From positions 1 through 33,789 of IMG/VR virus record IMGVR_UViG_3300027985_000039: 33,789 bases of DNA; one strand, given 5' to 3'. The stretch is from a virus. Both the position numbers and the translations under genes were made by a program. Below are positions 3-9,018 of the stretch, one piece after another; position 1 is the first letter of the stretch; each line of letters opens with the position of its first letter. The notes beneath the pieces are model-generated. The model saw only the letters and a program-made list of their open reading frames with translations. It was not told the DNA's origin and did not search any database.

Positions 3-1076
3 TCTAAAGATGAATTGTATTTGCTATACAATTCAGAATATCCCGGACACAAACACCGGGAAGTATATGAGGAACTTATTGATAAGTTATACTCTTTAGA
101 TGTTTCAAGAGATATAACAGAAGAGCTAATCCACAATCTTGTGCAACGTGATTTTGCTAATCAATTGCTTAATAAAGTCTTGCCTGTTGTAACAGGACAA
201 GATCAAGGAGACAACTTTGAATCAGTAAAGCATATCCTTAGCCAGTATGAGTCATACATTCCCCAAGTTATGGACGAAAGCCCATTTACTGAAATGGATA
301 TTGATTCAATACTGGATCAAGCAGAACAAGATGGACTACAATTTAGACTTAAGTGTTTACGTAATGGGTTAGGAAGTTTATCGGGAGGTACGTTGGGGCA
401 TTTGTTTGCTCGACCAGAAACCGGAAAGACTTCCTTTTGTCATTCAGAGGTGGCGTATATTGCATCCCAACTTACAGACAATGACTGTGTGTTGTGGTTC
501 AATAACGAAGAAGCTCCGAGTAAAATTATCAGGCGTAAGTATTCTGCAATTACAGGCATGTCTGAGGATGAACTGTCAGCCAAACGAGACATTGCCAAAG
601 AAATCTATCAACGAGAAGGAGGGTATCGGATTAAGCTGGTTGACGAGGCTGTCATTTCAATCGAACAAATTGAGAAGCTGTGTCTAGAATATAGACCAAG
701 ATTGGTCATTATAGACCAAGGTGATAAAGTTCACTACAAAGGCTCAAAGGATGCTGGTAATGGTGCAGAAAAATTAAAGGCTATATACGACCAACTGCGA
801 GAAGTGGTAAAGCGTTGCAATAAACTCTGGAAGATGGATATGCTTACAGTTGGGCAAGCAGATGTAGATGCCCAGAATAAAAGGGTGCTTACACTTGCCA
901 ACTTAGATTCAGGTAAGACAGGTAAGGCTGGAGCTTTTGACTATGTGATTGGTATTGGGCATGAACTAGGAAAGGATAATGTGAGGTACGTTACCTTCTG
1001 TAAGAATAAACTAAAAGGTAATCATGCAACATATCTAGTAACCTTTGACAATTTGACTGGGAGGTACAATGATTAA
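3..1076 (+). CDS. DnaB/RecA-fold replicative helicase-like ATPase, 5' end outside window
   Basis: Probable replicative DNA helicase ATPase domain of the DnaB/gp4 type, which unwinds DNA ahead of the phage polymerase. The frame is open to the left edge, so the true start is probably outside; a TTG at 15 is the first in-window start option and residue numbers count from it. Walker A is ARPETGKT at residues 132-139 ([AG]xxxxGK[ST]). Walker B is LVIID at 230-234. A later conserved Gln lies in TVGQAD near 278-283, where RecA-fold helicases place a sensor glutamine. No zinc-finger primase domain is visible in this part. The stop overlaps the next gene by 8 bases, and DNA polymerase follows, supporting a replication role. 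The ATPase fold is clear. Helicase against another RecA-like role (for example recombinase) is less certain. Confidence 0.8.
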   Translation, partial: SKDELYLLYNSEYPGHKHREVYEELIDKLYSLDVSRDITEELIHNLVQRDFANQLLNKVLPVVTGQDQGDNFESVKHILSQYESYIPQVMDESPFTEMDIDSILDQAEQDGLQFRLKCLRNGLGSLSGGTLGHLFARPETGKTSFCHSEVAYIASQLTDNDCVLWFNNEEAPSKIIRRKYSAITGMSEDELSAKRDIAKEIYQREGGYRIKLVDEAVISIEQIEKLCLEYRPRLVIIDQGDKVHYKGSKDAGNGAEKLKAIYDQLREVVKRCNKLWKMDMLTVGQADVDAQNKRVLTLANLDSGKTGKAGAFDYVIGIGHELGKDNVRYVTFCKNKLKGNHATYLVTFDNLTGRYND

Positions 1077-1317
1077 TCCTTGGAATTGGATCAAGCGAAT
1101 CTTTATTAGATATCCTCGCATAGTAACCTTTAAAAGTGTCAATCCAAAAAGAAAGAGTACGGGTTACGCAATCGAAGTACGTCCTGGAGAATTTTTAGTA
1201 TCACAATTAAATCAGAAGCATGATCTTACCAACACATATGGGTCTATTGAGTATGTAAATAAATACTGCGTAGTTCAGAATCCAGATGATTTGCAACTCT
1301 TTTATAAGCGAGCATAA
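1069..1317 (+). CDS. Hypothetical protein, 82 aa
   Basis: I do not recognise this protein. It is short and rather basic at its N-terminus, with several aromatic residues, and shows no signal peptide, zinc-binding cysteine pairs or clear membrane segment. The ATG has a good ribosome binding site (GGGAGG about 5 bases upstream). The gene overlaps the upstream helicase-like gene by 8 bases and its final base is the first base of the next start codon, so it is translationally coupled on both sides. That tiling supports it being real. A role in replication is suggested only by its position between helicase and polymerase. Confidence 0.7.
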   Translation: MINPWNWIKRIFIRYPRIVTFKSVNPKRKSTGYAIEVRPGEFLVSQLNQKHDLTNTYGSIEYVNKYCVVQNPDDLQLFYKRA

Positions 1318-2489
1318 TGCGAAATGTAGCCATTGACTTTGAGTGCACTAAATTACCGTATTCTTTTCCTTGGCAACCACAAGCATATGCTGTTTGTTTT
1401 TCAGCAGCAGACGAAGCCGGAGTGACTCGGACATGGTTCTTAAATCATGCAGCCGCAACTAAATCTATTGCTCAGTGCGTGAGAGAGATACAGGAATATC
1501 TCAACTCATTCGATAGAGTAATAGCGCATAATCTTAAGTATGAGTTACACTGGCTAAAACAGCTAGGCATCAATGTAGAAGAACACAAACTCTGGTGTAC
1601 TATGGTAGTGGAGTATCTTATACGGGGACAACAGAAGATGCAAGGTTTATCTTTGGATACCCTGTGTAAACTCTACAAACTACCCGCTAAGAAAGATCGG
1701 GTCAAAATCTATTGGGAAGCTGATATAGAGACAGATCAAATCCCTGCGGATATCTTGTCAACCTACTGCGAACAAGATGCCTTGAATGCTATGCTATTAT
1801 TCAAGCATCAGACTAAACAGGTTGGAAAGATGTTGTCACTACTATCACTAGAAATGGAAGTCATCAGATGCTACCATGAGATGGAATTCAATGGGATGCG
1901 AGTTAATCTCCTGCGTACATCTAGATACCAACGAGTAGCTGTAGCGAGACTTCAACAGATGGATTGTGAGTTAAAGGAATTACTTGGTATACCTGAGATC
2001 ACGAATCAGTGGTTATCCCGAGGATTATTTGGTGGAACTTATCTAGAATCTAGACAAGAACCTGTTATAGTTGATGGGCAACCATACAGATTCAAGACTG
2101 GTCTTCGTAAAGGTGAAATTAAAGAAAGGACAGTTGAGTATGAAAAGCGAATCAATGGTTTTGGCTTCAATCCAAAAGAGTGCGGCATTCCTGAAACAGC
2201 AAGCGCTGGTATTTATTCAGTCAGTAAAGAAAGCCTACCTTTACTTAAGGCAAAAACTCAGGAACAAAAACGTGTCATTGATTTGATGTATGCCCGTGCT
2301 AGACTAGAAAAATTGAAGTCGTCTTATTATGATAAATTTCCAGTTCTAGCAGTAGCAGGAATGATTCATGCTAATGTCAACCAAGCACTAACTAAAACAG
2401 GAAGGACGTCTTGTAATGATCCTAATCAACAGAATTTACCGCGCGGTAATAATGGACCAGTCAAGAAGTGCTTTGTCACGAGATTTTAA
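1317..2489 (+). CDS. Family A DNA polymerase, N-terminal part (3'-5' exonuclease and thumb)
   Basis: N-terminal 390 residues of a family A (Pol I/T7-like) DNA polymerase. Proofreading exonuclease motifs are visible: Exo I with D7 and E9, Exo II AHNLKYE with N72 and Glu76 where Asp is usual, and Exo III with Y150 and D154. The thumb and start of the palm follow, ending with the family signature GRTSCNDPNQQNLPRG (362-377) and then VKKCFVTRF. Frame TAA at 2487-2489 stops it about 10 residues before where motif A (DxSQxE) should begin; motif A is found in a separate reading frame at 2728. The two parts together make about 632 residues, a normal length for a phage enzyme of this type without a 5'-3' exonuclease. 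The proofreading domain may work alone, or the halves may assemble or be joined by RNA splicing; sequence alone does not decide. Confidence 0.9.
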   Translation: MRNVAIDFECTKLPYSFPWQPQAYAVCFSAADEAGVTRTWFLNHAAATKSIAQCVREIQEYLNSFDRVIAHNLKYELHWLKQLGINVEEHKLWCTMVVEYLIRGQQKMQGLSLDTLCKLYKLPAKKDRVKIYWEADIETDQIPADILSTYCEQDALNAMLLFKHQTKQVGKMLSLLSLEMEVIRCYHEMEFNGMRVNLLRTSRYQRVAVARLQQMDCELKELLGIPEITNQWLSRGLFGGTYLESRQEPVIVDGQPYRFKTGLRKGEIKERTVEYEKRINGFGFNPKECGIPETASAGIYSVSKESLPLLKAKTQEQKRVIDLMYARARLEKLKSSYYDKFPVLAVAGMIHANVNQALTKTGRTSCNDPNQQNLPRGNNGPVKKCFVTRF

Positions 2490-2727
2490 ATGAGTCCAAT
2501 CTATGAGTATCAATGCGAAGATTGTTTGGTAGTATTTGAACTCTTTAAAATTAAAAGTACCCCTATTGGAAAAAGCTGCCCTATTTGTATGTCTAGCCGA
2601 ACGCACCTCATACCTAGCCGGTCGGGGTATAGAAGGGATCATACATTAATTGAGGAATAAATTAATATGAGAAATATTTGGGTCACATCAGATACGCACT
2701 TTAATCACTCAAATTTTCTAAACTGTC
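2487..2727 (+). other. Insertion splitting the DNA polymerase gene
   Basis: This stretch separates the two halves of the family A polymerase. It holds one complete small zinc-ribbon gene and the first 23 codons of a metallophosphoesterase gene. The polymerase is nearly complete when it is removed: from the Phe in KKCFV to the catalytic Asp there are 10 residues, against 12 in E. coli and Taq Pol I. Removing 2488-2725 exactly would put the halves in frame (TTT TTC ATG ATT) with a T before and a G at the end of the removed piece, as group I introns require. However, I see no recognisable group I catalytic core (P3/P7-type segments), and the piece codes for protein nearly throughout. A recombination insertion is as likely as an intron. 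Confidence 0.7.
2490..2660 (+). CDS. FmdB-like zinc-ribbon protein, 56 aa
   Basis: Small zinc-ribbon protein of the FmdB/CxxC type. It starts with MSPIYEYQCEDC, close to the family's usual opening, and has two CxxC knuckles at C9/C12 and C30/C33. The ATG directly follows the stop of the polymerase N-terminal part (TAAATG), so translation would be by re-initiation; only a weak ribosome binding site is visible. Role unknown; such proteins bind zinc and sometimes nucleic acid. It looks complete, unlike the metallophosphoesterase fragment behind it, and appears to have arrived inside the polymerase gene as part of one insert. Confidence 0.75.
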   Translation: MSPIYEYQCEDCLVVFELFKIKSTPIGKSCPICMSSRTHLIPSRSGYRRDHTLIEE

Positions 2728-2738
2728 ATGATTCTTGA
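2667..2738 (+). pseudogene. Truncated metallophosphoesterase (first 23 codons)
   Basis: The frame encodes MRNIWVTSDTHFNHSNFLNC and then a stop after three more residues. SDTHFxH is the N-terminal metal-binding signature of calcineurin-like phosphoesterases (Asp and His ligands). These enzymes are normally 150 residues or more, so this is a remnant: homology ends where the polymerase C-terminal part begins, with which its last 11 bases overlap in another frame. It has a good ribosome binding site (TGAGGA about 9 bases before the ATG), so a 23-residue peptide may still be made, and its translation could help ribosomes reach the polymerase ATG at 2728. Alternatively the resemblance is partial and this is only a leader peptide. 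Confidence 0.6.
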
Positions 2739-3456
2739 TGTTGACTTAAGCCAAATCGAATGGAGGGTCGTGGCTGCTCTCACTCAAGATGAAGTAATGA
2801 TGAATGAGATCAGAAATAGTGTAGATCAACATTCTGCTGCGTGTGTTGATCTAATGGAACTTCCACTAACCAAAGAGAATAGAACTGATGCTAAAATATT
2901 TAATTTCAGAGCTATCTATGCAAATCCAGAGACTGCGGCATATGCTTACTTCATGGACAACAAAATGCCAAGCTTCACTATGCACAAGTGGCAAAGTATC
3001 ATGGATGCCTTTTATGCAAAGTATTCTGGGATGTTCAAAGCCCACGAAGAGTGGGTTCACACAGTACGTAGAACAGGAGAAATCATTGGCCCAACAGGAA
3101 GGCGCTGGCTCTTCACAAAACAAAATAAAAAGGGGTACTGGGACTATTCTGTAACTCAAATTAGAAACTACCCCGTACAAGGGACAGCAGGTGATTTAAT
3201 CAAACTAGCTCTGGTATATATACGCAAGAGATTACTGGCTGCCTACCCTCAAGCTCTCATGGTGATGACTGTTCATGACAGCATCATATTTGATTTACCA
3301 GATGCAATAGTTAAACCTGTTGCAAAGATTTGTATTGACACATTTCAAGAACTTCCTATACTTGCAGAGAAACATTTTAATTGGCTTATTCCAGTTCCTA
3401 TTACTGGTGAGGCCGATGCTGGCCCCTCATGGGGGAGAATGGAGCGTATCATTTGA
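2728..3456 (+). CDS. Family A DNA polymerase, C-terminal palm/fingers part
   Basis: C-terminal polymerase domain of the split enzyme, 242 residues. Motif A is DVDLSQIEWR with catalytic D6 (residues 4-13). Motif B is RTDAKIFNFRAIYA (52-65), containing the dNTP-binding Arg, Lys and Tyr; the usual Gly after Tyr is Ala. Motif C is TVHDS (181-185), where HDE is usual; the catalytic Asp184 is kept. The first residue I can place is only five residues before the catalytic Asp, so this piece cannot be an independent enzyme and must act with the N-terminal part at 1317. The ATG has no ribosome binding site (TTCTAAACTGTC precedes it), so it is either coupled to the upstream fragment or is not a true start and is joined by splicing. 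Confidence 0.9.
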   Translation: MILDVDLSQIEWRVVAALTQDEVMMNEIRNSVDQHSAACVDLMELPLTKENRTDAKIFNFRAIYANPETAAYAYFMDNKMPSFTMHKWQSIMDAFYAKYSGMFKAHEEWVHTVRRTGEIIGPTGRRWLFTKQNKKGYWDYSVTQIRNYPVQGTAGDLIKLALVYIRKRLLAAYPQALMVMTVHDSIIFDLPDAIVKPVAKICIDTFQELPILAEKHFNWLIPVPITGEADAGPSWGRMERII

Positions 3457-4016: not shown

Positions 4017-4176
4017 GCAGCGAGAGTATAAACTACTATGTATGAGGTGTAAAGGCGAGGGTAATGTCCTCATTGAAACTACCATATCTCCTACCTATGT
4101 GGTGACTGATATGTACTTCAAGTGTAGTGAATGTAACTACACAGAACACCAACAAAGGACTATGAATATTGGCTGA
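4006..4176 (+). CDS. Small zinc-ribbon protein, 56 aa
   Basis: A 56-residue protein with two CxxC knuckles (C12/C15 and C40/C43) and a beta-rich middle, a typical single zinc ribbon. I start it at the ATG at 4006, preceded by AGGAAG; the same frame extends upstream to 3961 but that would lie wholly within the previous gene. It overlaps its neighbours on both sides by about 10 bases. Zinc ribbons this small often bind nucleic acid or modulate a larger enzyme; the actual role is unknown. Its neighbours are the SSB-like protein and a PD-(D/E)XK nuclease. Confidence 0.75.
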   Translation: MGTKQREYKLLCMRCKGEGNVLIETTISPTYVVTDMYFKCSECNYTEHQQRTMNIG

Positions 4177-4924
4177 TTTTTTAGCAGAGGGAGGACATTG
4201 GTATCAATCTGATGGGACTCCTCTCTATGAGATTGAAAAGGCTAAGGGTGGTGGGCTTCGGCCTACCACTCTACGAGATGCAAAGAAACTTAATCTATTT
4301 CCATCTGTTACTGGCATCATCAAAGAGATGGCAGCACCAAATCTCACAAGCTGGAAGATTCGACAAGCTGTTGAAGTAGCATACGAGAATCCTCATTTTG
4401 CTACTGAAACTAATACTGATTATGCTAATCGTATTATAGCTATGGCAGAAGCCCCGGTGAAAGAAAAAGCCACATTAGGCGGTGAGATTCACTGGGCAAT
4501 AGAACAAGCACTGTGTGGTAATGAGTTTGATGTAAACTACACACCACATGTGTATGCCGTTACAGATTATCTTCAATCATTATCCGCAGAGTGGGTAGCA
4601 GAGCAATCATTTGCTCACGCTGGCTTTGGAGGGAAGATAGACGCATATTCCGAGAATATCGTAGTAGATTTCAAGACCAAAGATTTTACACAAGCTAAGT
4701 TACCCAAGGCATATGAGAATCACTGGATGCAGTTAGGGGCATATCGTCAGGGACTAGGCAAACCTGATATGCGTGGAATTATTATCTTTATATCCATCTC
4801 TGATCCGGGATTGATTCATCCAGTGGAAGTGACTAACGAAGAACTTACAACGGGATACGCTATGTTTGATTGTTTAAAACAACTATGGTGTATCAGGAGG
4901 AACTACAATCCAATTGCATCCTAA
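4169..4924 (+). CDS. PD-(D/E)XK exonuclease, RecB/Cas4-like
   Basis: Nuclease of the PD-(D/E)XK superfamily (PDDEXK_1, RecB/Cas4-related), 251 aa, probably acting in recombination or host DNA breakdown. Visible motifs: LGGEIHWAIE (103-112) with H108, the position of the helix-borne His/Glu seen in RecB-type nucleases; FGGKID with D158; VVDFKTK with D167 and K169; and QLGAYRQ (188-194), the QxxxY motif typical of this branch. There is no iron-sulphur cysteine cluster, which separates it from true Cas4. The start is a TTG overlapping the stop of the preceding gene, with AAAGGA upstream. The reaction class is secure. Substrate polarity and partner are not known. Confidence 0.85.
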   Translation: MADFLAEGGHWYQSDGTPLYEIEKAKGGGLRPTTLRDAKKLNLFPSVTGIIKEMAAPNLTSWKIRQAVEVAYENPHFATETNTDYANRIIAMAEAPVKEKATLGGEIHWAIEQALCGNEFDVNYTPHVYAVTDYLQSLSAEWVAEQSFAHAGFGGKIDAYSENIVVDFKTKDFTQAKLPKAYENHWMQLGAYRQGLGKPDMRGIIIFISISDPGLIHPVEVTNEELTTGYAMFDCLKQLWCIRRNYNPIAS

Positions 4925-5270
4925 AGATTTTAATTCATTGGTAGCGTCGATTAAACGAACATTCTCTAGGTCTACTATTTATATTGAAGTGCTGAATGCC
5001 GCTAAGTGCCCTCGTAAAAAGGGGCCACAAGGGGGAGCTCGCTATCGTTGTGCTATCTGCAAGAAAGACTTTGGAAGAAGAGAGGTGCAAGTAGATCATA
5101 TTGATCCTGTTATTCCTATTGGGCAAAAAGCAAAGGATATGACATTCGATCAAATCATTAGCCGATTGTACTGTGATGCTACGAATCTTCAAGTCTTAGA
5201 TAAAAAGTGCCATAAACTTAAATCTACAGAGGAGAACAAACAACGTCGTGCTAGCCAAAGAAAGAGCTAA
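4914..5270 (+). CDS. HNH endonuclease-like protein, 118 aa
   Basis: HNH (beta-beta-alpha metal) nuclease domain. Key features are a CAIC knuckle (C46, C49), the DH pair (D61, H62) in VQVDHIDP, then TNLQVLDKKCHKLKS with N91 and C99/H100 finishing the motif and the second zinc knuckle. It lacks extra DNA-binding repeats typical of homing endonucleases. It is coupled to the PD-(D/E)XK gene (11-base overlap) and starts with TTG behind AGGAGG. Possible roles are junction or branched-DNA cleavage during replication, or host DNA nicking. It could equally be a resident free-standing homing endonuclease, but tight operon overlap argues for an integrated phage function. Confidence 0.8.
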   Translation: MHPKDFNSLVASIKRTFSRSTIYIEVLNAAKCPRKKGPQGGARYRCAICKKDFGRREVQVDHIDPVIPIGQKAKDMTFDQIISRLYCDATNLQVLDKKCHKLKSTEENKQRRASQRKS

Positions 5271-5490: not shown

Positions 5491-6239
5491 AAATTCTTAT
5501 CTTGGATATTGAGACAGCGCCTAATATTGCACATGTATGGAGATTATGGAAAGAGAATGTTAGTGTAGATCAGCTTCTACAGCCACATGACGTTCTGTGT
5601 TGGGCAGCAAAATGGTTAGATTCAGACGAAGTAATGTTCTTCTCCAGATTTCATCATGGCCAAGATGCGATGATTATGGAGATTTATGGGCTTCTTAATG
5701 AGGCAGATGCGGTTGTCACTTTTAATGGTAAGAAATTTGATATCCCGCACCTTAATAGAACCTTTCTTTTGCGGGGGATGGCTCCCCCTAAACCCTTTAA
5801 GAATATTGATCTACTTGATACTGTCAAGAGTAAATTTAGATTCCCTTCAAATAAACTTCAGCAACTTGCTAGGGAACTCCTGGGTGACACTAAAGAAGAG
5901 CATTCAGGGCATAAATTATGGGTTAAGTGTTTAAATGATGATCCTGAAGCATGGACAAAGATGGGGGTGTATAATCGAAAAGATGTAATCCTTACTGAGA
6001 GGATATACTATATTCTTAGGCCGTGGATTTCTGGGCACCCTAATCATGCTCTATATGTTGAAACAACACAACCAGTATGCCCCAACTGTGGCTCAGTAAA
6101 GATGTGGAAGCAGGGGTATGCGTATACAGCAGTTAGTAAGTTTCAACAGTATCAATGTGTATCTTGTGGTAAATGGACAAGGGGAAGGGAGAATTTGATT
6201 GATCGAGCTAACGTCAGGTCAGGTATAGCAGATGGATAA
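5487..6239 (+). CDS. DnaQ-like 3'-5' exonuclease with C-terminal zinc ribbon
   Basis: RNase H-fold exonuclease of the DnaQ/YprB type (RNase_H_2-like), 250 aa. The DEDDy set is visible: D7 and E9 in LDIET, N80 and D85 in FNGKKFD, and Y162 with D166 in VYNRKD. After about residue 190 a zinc ribbon is fused, with CPNC (C198, C201) and CVSC (C224, C227). The enzyme probably trims DNA or RNA 3' ends. It sits beside a polymerase whose own proofreading domain is on a separate polypeptide. Start is TTG overlapping the preceding stop (ATTGA). The exonuclease fold is convincing; substrate is unknown. Confidence 0.8.
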   Translation: MKILILDIETAPNIAHVWRLWKENVSVDQLLQPHDVLCWAAKWLDSDEVMFFSRFHHGQDAMIMEIYGLLNEADAVVTFNGKKFDIPHLNRTFLLRGMAPPKPFKNIDLLDTVKSKFRFPSNKLQQLARELLGDTKEEHSGHKLWVKCLNDDPEAWTKMGVYNRKDVILTERIYYILRPWISGHPNHALYVETTQPVCPNCGSVKMWKQGYAYTAVSKFQQYQCVSCGKWTRGRENLIDRANVRSGIADG

Positions 6240-7164: not shown

Positions 7165-7363
7165 GACTTGTACCTGCGGGATGTGCGGAATTGAGCTGTA
7201 TACTGATGATATTGAGTTGCATATTGATCGGGACGAAATGACCGAAGATGAGTTGCAGTCTATTCTCAATGGGCAACATAAACAGTATCTAGTTCTATGT
7301 GATGATTGTATGATGTTGTTTACTGCGTTGGACGATATGGATAATGGCGGAGTTATTCATTAA
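7145..7363 (+). CDS. Small zinc-binding protein, 72 aa
   Basis: A 72-residue acidic protein with CTCGMC (C9, C11, C14) near the N-terminus and CDDC (C52, C55) in the second half, enough for one zinc knuckle. Between them is a charged helical segment. It overlaps the upstream small gene by 20 bases; its last base is the first of the ribonucleotide reductase ATG. Position directly before nrdJ could mean an accessory role in nucleotide reduction, but nothing in the sequence proves that. Confidence 0.7.
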   Translation: MSATAIKTCTCGMCGIELYTDDIELHIDRDEMTEDELQSILNGQHKQYLVLCDDCMMLFTALDDMDNGGVIH

Positions 7364-9018
7364 TGGGAAAATTTCAATGGAAAACCTCATATGCTGAGGA
7401 CATCTTTAGACTTAAGTATGCACAGGGGCCAAATGATACATGGCCAGCATTAGCTAGGAGAGTTGGTTCTGCAGTCTGTGGTCCCCTATTTCTTGGGGAC
7501 CGACCTCTACTGCACCCTGATGAGATTGATGAGTTAGTTCAGCGCATTACCCAGATGAAGTTTATTCCTGGAGGGAGGTATCTTTATTATGCTGGGAGAA
7601 CTGCACGATTCTACAATAACTGTTACTGCCTCAAGGCAGAAGAAGACACGCGTGAAGAATGGGGAAGACTCTTACGATGTGCAAGTGATGCTCTCATGTC
7701 CGGGGGTGGTGTCGGTGTGGACTACTCCATCTTACGAGAATCCGGTCGAGTACTTAAAAGAACTGGTGGAATATCTTCAGGTCCGATACCCCTCATGCAA
7801 AGTATTAATGAGGTGGGTCGCAATGTAATGCAAGGAGGAAGTAGACGTTCTGCTCTCTATGCTAGCCTTAATTGGCAGCATGGGGACATTGAGCCATTCT
7901 TACACATAAAAGACTGGCCAACTCAAATAGTTGAACTTAAAGCTAATGACTTCAACTTTCCAGCTCCACTTGATATGACAAATATCTCAATCAACTGGGA
8001 TACAGACTTTGCTGATCTTTGTCTTCCTTCAGAATCCAGCAGTTATAATCTGCCTAAAATCTGGTATGAGTCAGTTAGGCAGATGATGCGAACAGGAGAG
8101 CCGGGTCATAGTTATAATTTCTGGGAACAAGAGGATCATACACTAAGAAATGCGTGTGCGGAATTTATCAGCGATACAGATAGCGACGTATGTAATCTTG
8201 GTAGCATTAATCTGGCAGCGCATGATTCTTTGGAAGACTTTGCAATCACTGTTGACCTGGCTGCAAAGTTTCTAATTTGTGGAAGTATTCGTGCTGAACT
8301 TCCTTATGAGAAAGTCTACGCTACTCGTGAAAAGAATAGGCGTATTGGTCTTGGTCTTATGGGGGTCCATGAATGGCTACTACGTAATGGGAAAGGGTAT
8401 GAAGTAGATGGTGAACTCCGACAATATCTTGCAATCTATCGAGATGGATCAACTAGAGCGGCTACAGAGCACGCTAAAAGACTTTACTGCTCACCTCCAA
8501 AGAGCTTCCGAGCTATTGCACCCGCAGGAACTATCGGTATACTTGCTAGCACTACAACTGGTATTGAACCACTATACTCAGTCGCCTACAAGCGACGAAA
8601 CCTTGTCGGAAAAGACCAGTGGAAATACCAGTACTACGTTGACACCACCGCAGATCGACTCATCAGAGAAGGGGGACTTGATCCAGACTCTATCGAAACA
8701 GCTAGCGATCTCGCCCGTAATCCTGAACGACGAATAAAGTTTCAATATGATATACAACAGTATGTGGACATGGGTATCTCAAGTACAATCAATCTCCCTG
8801 CATGGGGTACTCAGTTCAATAATGAAACCAAGGTTAAAGACATGGCAGAGGTACTGGCTAAGTATTGTCATGGTCTTAGGGGTATCACTATGTATCCCGA
8901 CGGTGCTAGAGGTGGCCAGCCTATCACCGCAGTTAAGTATTCGGATGCCCTCAGCAAACGAGGACATATCTTTACAGAAAACGAAGAGTCCTGTATTGGC
9001 GGAATCTGTGGAATTTAA
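7363..9018 (+). CDS. nrdJ: Class II (adenosylcobalamin-dependent) ribonucleotide reductase
   Basis: Single-chain class II ribonucleotide reductase, converting ribonucleotides to deoxyribonucleotides with B12 as the radical source, in the cytoplasm. The catalytic loop NACAE gives N263, thiyl-radical C265 and E267. The reducible cysteine pair is probably C87 (NNCYC) with C277 (DVCNLGSINLA). The tail ends in a CxxxxC redox pair (C544, C549), which passes electrons from thioredoxin or glutaredoxin. AGTIGILASTTTGIEP is the conserved late active-site/phosphate-binding stretch. At 551 residues it is compact, with no obvious ATP-cone. No small subunit or activase gene is nearby, fitting class II. B12 would have to come from the host. 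Confidence 0.92.
   Translation: MGKFQWKTSYAEDIFRLKYAQGPNDTWPALARRVGSAVCGPLFLGDRPLLHPDEIDELVQRITQMKFIPGGRYLYYAGRTARFYNNCYCLKAEEDTREEWGRLLRCASDALMSGGGVGVDYSILRESGRVLKRTGGISSGPIPLMQSINEVGRNVMQGGSRRSALYASLNWQHGDIEPFLHIKDWPTQIVELKANDFNFPAPLDMTNISINWDTDFADLCLPSESSSYNLPKIWYESVRQMMRTGEPGHSYNFWEQEDHTLRNACAEFISDTDSDVCNLGSINLAAHDSLEDFAITVDLAAKFLICGSIRAELPYEKVYATREKNRRIGLGLMGVHEWLLRNGKGYEVDGELRQYLAIYRDGSTRAATEHAKRLYCSPPKSFRAIAPAGTIGILASTTTGIEPLYSVAYKRRNLVGKDQWKYQYYVDTTADRLIREGGLDPDSIETASDLARNPERRIKFQYDIQQYVDMGISSTINLPAWGTQFNNETKVKDMAEVLAKYCHGLRGITMYPDGARGGQPITAVKYSDALSKRGHIFTENEESCIGGICGI

Follow-up and report, generated by a model that had tools for sequence, protein, structure and literature searches.

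The window, a stretch of 33,789 bases from an IMG/VR record of a virus of bacteria, carries a family A DNA polymerase in two separate reading frames, and this raises the question of whether the enzyme is assembled from two chains or whether a single gene has been interrupted. The first-pass annotation had offered two assembling subunits, a very small unusual intron and a recombination event as explanations. The comparisons described below favour a replicative polymerase of two chains encoded by separate cistrons, with a probability of roughly 85 %; judging from the sequences, the two chains would assemble non-covalently. Such an enzyme is a natural template for split-polymerase tools.

The two polymerase genes and the DNA between them

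The N-terminal half (positions 1317-2489, plus strand, 390 aa) comprises the 3'-5' exonuclease, the thumb and the beginning of the polymerase domain, as far as the turn that precedes motif A, as assigned by a PHROG DNA polymerase match (E 7e-53) and alignment to Klenow. The C-terminal half (2728-3456, plus strand, 242 aa) comprises the palm and the fingers and bears motifs A, B and C, as assigned by Pfam (E 2e-33), AlphaFold, Foldseek and the conserved catalytic residues. This domain assignment bears out the expectation that the exonuclease and thumb lie on one chain and the catalytic Asp of the palm on the other. The Pfam DNA_pol_A matches of the two halves are consecutive, covering profile positions 55-147 and 154-380, which confirms that one family A polymerase is distributed over two ORFs in two frames. 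The N half ends with ...VKKCFVTRF* and the C half begins with MILDVDLSQIE. The frame of the C half is shut upstream by an in-frame TAA at 2719-2721; from the ATG at 2728 it is open through motif A, which is uninterrupted and has no coding gap. With the fused relative L167 (VKRLFLPRYDQILNVDLSQIEW at the break site) as the reference, the two chains are short by about one residue, so the halves are indeed nearly full length, with about one residue missing rather than the two estimated earlier.

The family A motifs are present in the window: the motif A Asp, R...K...F...Y of motif B and HD of motif C. Residues D6, R52, K56, F60, Y64, H183 and D184 of the C half are invariant or nearly so. In the N chain the acidic exonuclease residues D7, E9 and D154 are kept, and residue 76 of motif II (HNLKYELHW) is a Glu, a position occupied mostly by Asp in the aligned relatives; going by sequence, this substitution may alter proofreading. 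The polymerase lies in a replication module between a DnaB-like replicative helicase gene upstream (3-1076, plus strand, PHROG E 2e-32) and an exonuclease gene downstream (4169-4924, plus strand, PHROG E 1e-11), and the window also carries ribonucleotide reductase, terminase and head genes. A small HNH endonuclease-like gene is located 3' of the exonuclease gene (4914-5270). The large-subunit ribonucleotide reductase ORF (7363-9018, 551 aa) matches reductase profiles in part only and may be short or divided.

Both halves align to the E. coli Klenow fragment, and the C half starts a few residues before the motif A Asp. In the AlphaFold model of the fused L167 protein (mean pLDDT 90.3) the break falls in a four-residue turn (382-385), followed by a strand (386-392) in which the catalytic Asp 391 lies. 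The window C half modelled alone reached a mean pLDDT of 93.7 and in Foldseek matched pol theta and Bst pol I in their palm and fingers (TMq 0.8). In these models the position of the break would allow two chains to re-pair two beta strands. Inteins commonly occupy the active-site motifs of polymerases, and a split intein joining the chains by protein trans-splicing could be imagined for this position; it is hardly credible for the window, where no extra residues are present at the break and the chain ends lie within one residue of fused relatives.

The gap is filled by two short ORFs on the plus strand, and no endonuclease gene was found between the halves. The first (2490-2660, 56 aa) follows the N-half stop directly (TAAATG) and encodes a zinc ribbon of the Zn_ribbon_8/FmdB type (Pfam E 3e-8, just under the cut-off) with a counterpart in L007, the nearest relative. 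The second is a mini-ORF of 23 codons (2667-2738, MRNIWVTSDTHFNHSNFLNCHDS*), preceded by GAGGAA at 2652-2657, whose stop overlaps the start of the C half. In tblastn it matched phage genes, most of them with a metallophosphoesterase annotation (best hit E 0.09, 64 % over 22 aa), so by its sequence it is probably the N-terminal remnant of a truncated phosphoesterase. L166, a relative from the clade of the window, has an intact ORF between the halves with a weak match to calcineurin-like phosphoesterases.

A truncated gene in the gap, together with the missing ribosome binding site of the C half and the origin of the sequence from one metagenomic contig, would also be expected if the polymerase was non-functional, broken by deletion damage or by an assembly error. 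This was considered unlikely: the polymerase catalytic residues are kept and frame breaks elsewhere in the polymerase genes of relatives are very rare (see below). Moreover, L007 shows the same order of N half, the same zinc ribbon, further DNA and C half, which argues against an assembly artefact.

Relatives divided at the same site and the case against an intron

With the window halves as queries, DNA-level and single-sequence searches gave no relatives at the DNA level in phages and none in IMG/VR; the relatives described here came from profile searches. In the first census, in which some contigs were fetched twice, the halves lay in separate ORFs at 146 of 151 loci. In the enlarged set there were 129 split and 81 fused full-length forms, each counted once. 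Split forms had served to seed the query profiles, so the census is biased towards these and its percentages cannot be read as frequencies in the population.

Dozens of relatives carry two distinct genes at the break site, frequently with a ribosome binding site of their own or with an overlapping stop and start, which lends support to the option of two assembling subunits. In L003 the halves overlap (TAATG) with no insert, and in L087 and L008 they are 1-2 nt apart or overlapping, with the Shine-Dalgarno sequence for the C half of L008 located within the N-half tail. One small gene separates the halves in L001 and MEP402, and about 3.6 kb with six genes in L002.

A direct comparison is that of the phages ICP2 and ICP2_2013_A_Haiti, whose sequences flanking the break on either side are 84-87 % identical. 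In ICP2 the gap holds an HNH-type ORF, and the ICP2 record (HQ641345; L158:2393-4961) annotates the polymerase as a join across that ORF. ICP2_2013_A_Haiti has no HNH ORF, yet the stop, the Shine-Dalgarno sequence and the separate ATG are kept. Since the Haiti phage is split without an insert, the insert is not what separates the two ICP2 genes; with regard to the annotated join, the Haiti comparison favours two genes. Like the window, ICP2 has a family A polymerase in two parts, but its break lies about 15 residues further upstream and it belongs to a separate split clade.

Split family A polymerases have been described in MEP401-type OM43 phages, for which an intron was suggested as possible (PMC10580990). 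These phages resemble the window in that their family A polymerase is divided into two ORFs directly ahead of motif A and a small gene separates the halves, and in the window too the break falls between SRx/TRx and the motif A strand. They differ from it in belonging to a separate clade of the tree and in carrying an unrelated gene in the gap.

The option left open in that work was also weighed for the window, in the form of a small self-splicing intron of about 238 nt interrupting one polymerase gene. Removal of 2488-2725 does join the two frames, as had been pointed out in the first-pass annotation; the T and G at the ends of the removed segment, taken there as a sign of splicing, carry little information. 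A related polymerase gene, that of L172, does contain a true group I intron, which carries an HNH ORF (L172:5383-5934, Intron_gpI, site SSKDP|NGQN) and lies roughly 15-20 codons upstream of the break; joining across it restores SSKDPNGQNFPREG, and L172 is classed as intron-interrupted and not as split. The same Rfam search, which detected the L172 intron as a positive control (E 4.7e-8), gave no group I core in the inserts of the window, L007 or ICP2 with E values up to 10, in agreement with the absence of a recognisable core noted earlier. The Rfam gathering score was not relied on, as it would miss the L172 intron (37.8 vs 50 bits). In addition, the window insert encodes a conserved zinc ribbon, and the insert-free ICP2_2013_A_Haiti, L003, L008 and L087 are still split instead of having one continuous gene. 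The very small intron is therefore not supported and is considered very unlikely; these comparisons argue against the intron reading for OM43 phages as well, and constitute new evidence on that point. In L065 (5812-6500) the N half stops at SSSKP and is followed by an HNH_3 ORF, by eye at the upstream position where L172 has its intron; L065 may hold a second group I intron.

The history of the two-chain arrangement was traced in a tree of 43 rows, which needed five changes between split and fused forms (5 %-95 % range over bootstrap trees, 5-5). Placing all splits in one clade was rejected (p-AU 7e-61); a single clade was rejected too for the window-group splits with L008 included (p-AU 3e-4). 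L007 is sister to the window (100/100), and the two fall in a group of 19 rows in which most polymerases are fused (98/94). This group lies apart from the split clades of the MEP401 type and the ICP2 type, and the window represents a new, distinct split lineage that carries a zinc-ribbon gene in the gap. On this phylogeny the polymerase seems to have been split several times at nearly the same spot, for which the tree provides new evidence, although some of the changes could be re-fusions and not new splits. An essential replicative polymerase has thus apparently been broken repeatedly at the same turn beside its catalytic aspartate. The split is probably older than the insert of the window. 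Recombination, the third of the explanations offered earlier, accordingly fits the content of the gap, with its truncated phosphoesterase and variable genes, but not the split itself.

Translation of the C chain

No Shine-Dalgarno match precedes the ATG at 2728, as the first-pass annotation had observed for the C-terminal half. A Shine-Dalgarno sequence of at least 4 nt was found for 105 of 142 unique C halves of split polymerases that have an ordinary start codon, compared with 26 % at random positions. The window is among the three of these 142 that lack both a Shine-Dalgarno sequence and a longer upstream ORF with its end near the start. Its C chain is therefore probably made by reinitiation at the stop of the mini-ORF, which overlaps the C-half start, and the translation of the two may be coupled. 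Strong Shine-Dalgarno sequences precede the C halves of L166 (about 5990-6030) and L154 (about 1135-1182), which lack a usable in-frame ATG, GTG or TTG; these C halves possibly start with ATA or ATT.

A single chain could also result if ribosomes bypassed the 238 nt in the manner of T4 gene 60. One known case of bypassing is a gene that an endonuclease has split (PMC5009743, PMC3014915), and small interruptions of bypassable look occur in relatives of the window. For the window itself this explanation is highly improbable: a matched pair of take-off and landing codons was not identified, an intact gene lies inside the gap, relatives have up to 3.6 kb at the same place and the C half begins with ATG.

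Homing endonucleases and interruptions at motif A

The gap between the halves contains HNH-type endonuclease genes in L007, L083, L059, L035, L371 and ICP2, which belong to three split clades; those of L035 and L371 were assigned by likeness to the L059 ORF. In L059, L035 and L371 the cassette interrupts the palm gene within its first codons. The order is the old truncated start (e.g. ATGCTACTACAAGCAGA), TTGACT-N17-TATACT, the endonuclease ORF, a Shine-Dalgarno sequence, a new start and the old gene. The new start is coded differently (ATGTTACTCCAAGCGGATGCAAAACAACT...), and the old gene resumes from GAGTGG. L007 is arranged on the same principle, with an endonuclease of another family: the HNH ORF opens with MIVDADL, the old start, and a new MIVDCDLSQI comes after it.

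By the example of these relatives, the polymerase was probably split by a homing endonuclease gene that inserted itself into the conserved motif A codons or close to them; such insertions probably created the older splits too, and in the window the endonuclease would since have gone from the gap. More tentatively, and with less than an even chance of being right in all its parts, motif A of phage family A polymerases could be a homing hotspot at which cassettes re-encode the palm start and so produce a two-gene polymerase, some alleles keeping an interruption of 1-6 nt, which ribosomes would have to hop in making the catalytic subunit, and the window representing a later stage with the endonuclease lost and other genes moved in. 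If so, one insertion would suffice, the re-encoded start supplying a ribosome site, an ATG and the motif A codons. Homing endonucleases as the likely driver can be tested, as intact, split, endonuclease-bearing and interrupted alleles coexist among the relatives.

Comparable cases are known from other phage genes. The split gp43 of Aeromonas phages 25 and 44RR, a family B polymerase, and the split NrdA of Aeh1 are active as two chains (PMC2988022). Like the window polymerase they are phage enzymes in two chains, theirs being tied to homing endonucleases, but they represent another enzyme or polymerase family and another break site. In the T4 topoisomerase genes 39/60, insertion of the mobA endonuclease splits an essential gene, and a 50-nt segment is bypassed (PMC5009743, PMC3014915). 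As in some relatives of the window, an interruption is also present in the downstream half, whereas the window has neither an endonuclease in the gap nor an interruption.

These interruptions in the palm-half genes of relatives are 1-6 nt long, in contrast to the 50 nt of T4, and lie inside the polymerase active site, at one spot of motif A at or just before the E-W codons (GARTGG). They were found in L059 (930-990), L213, L336, L424, L035 (7002-7045), L371 (1140-1180), L397 (3910-3950), L083, L086, L004 and L007, and several adjoin an endonuclease cassette that re-encodes the gene start. The interruption is +1 in L007 and L004, +2 in L086 and L371, and +4 in L083 and, in a form shared by four contigs, in L059, L213, L336 and L424. 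The +6 interruptions place a stop between identical codons, CTG TAA CTG in L035 and CTT TAG CTT in L397; according to a review, no natural in-frame stop hop is known (PMC5009743). The two scans, both confined to certain codons, also allowed in-frame inserts, and among the matches listed every polymerase interruption breaks the frame or adds a stop. Elsewhere in the polymerase genes, frame breaks were found in none of 303 loci for C halves and in one of 296 for N halves. Sequencing error is unlikely as the source of the interruptions since frame breaks elsewhere are almost absent. No second copy of the C half was found in ten interrupted records, several of about 45 kb, the completeness of which was not established. 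The interruptions are candidate small ribosomal bypass or stop-hop sites, by analogy with T4 mobA/gene 60. Past the junction, the L336 protein is identical to that of an intact relative, with only synonymous change in the gene. Since the protein is kept in this way, the interrupted alleles appear to work, and their sequences suggest that they do so perhaps via short ribosomal hops.
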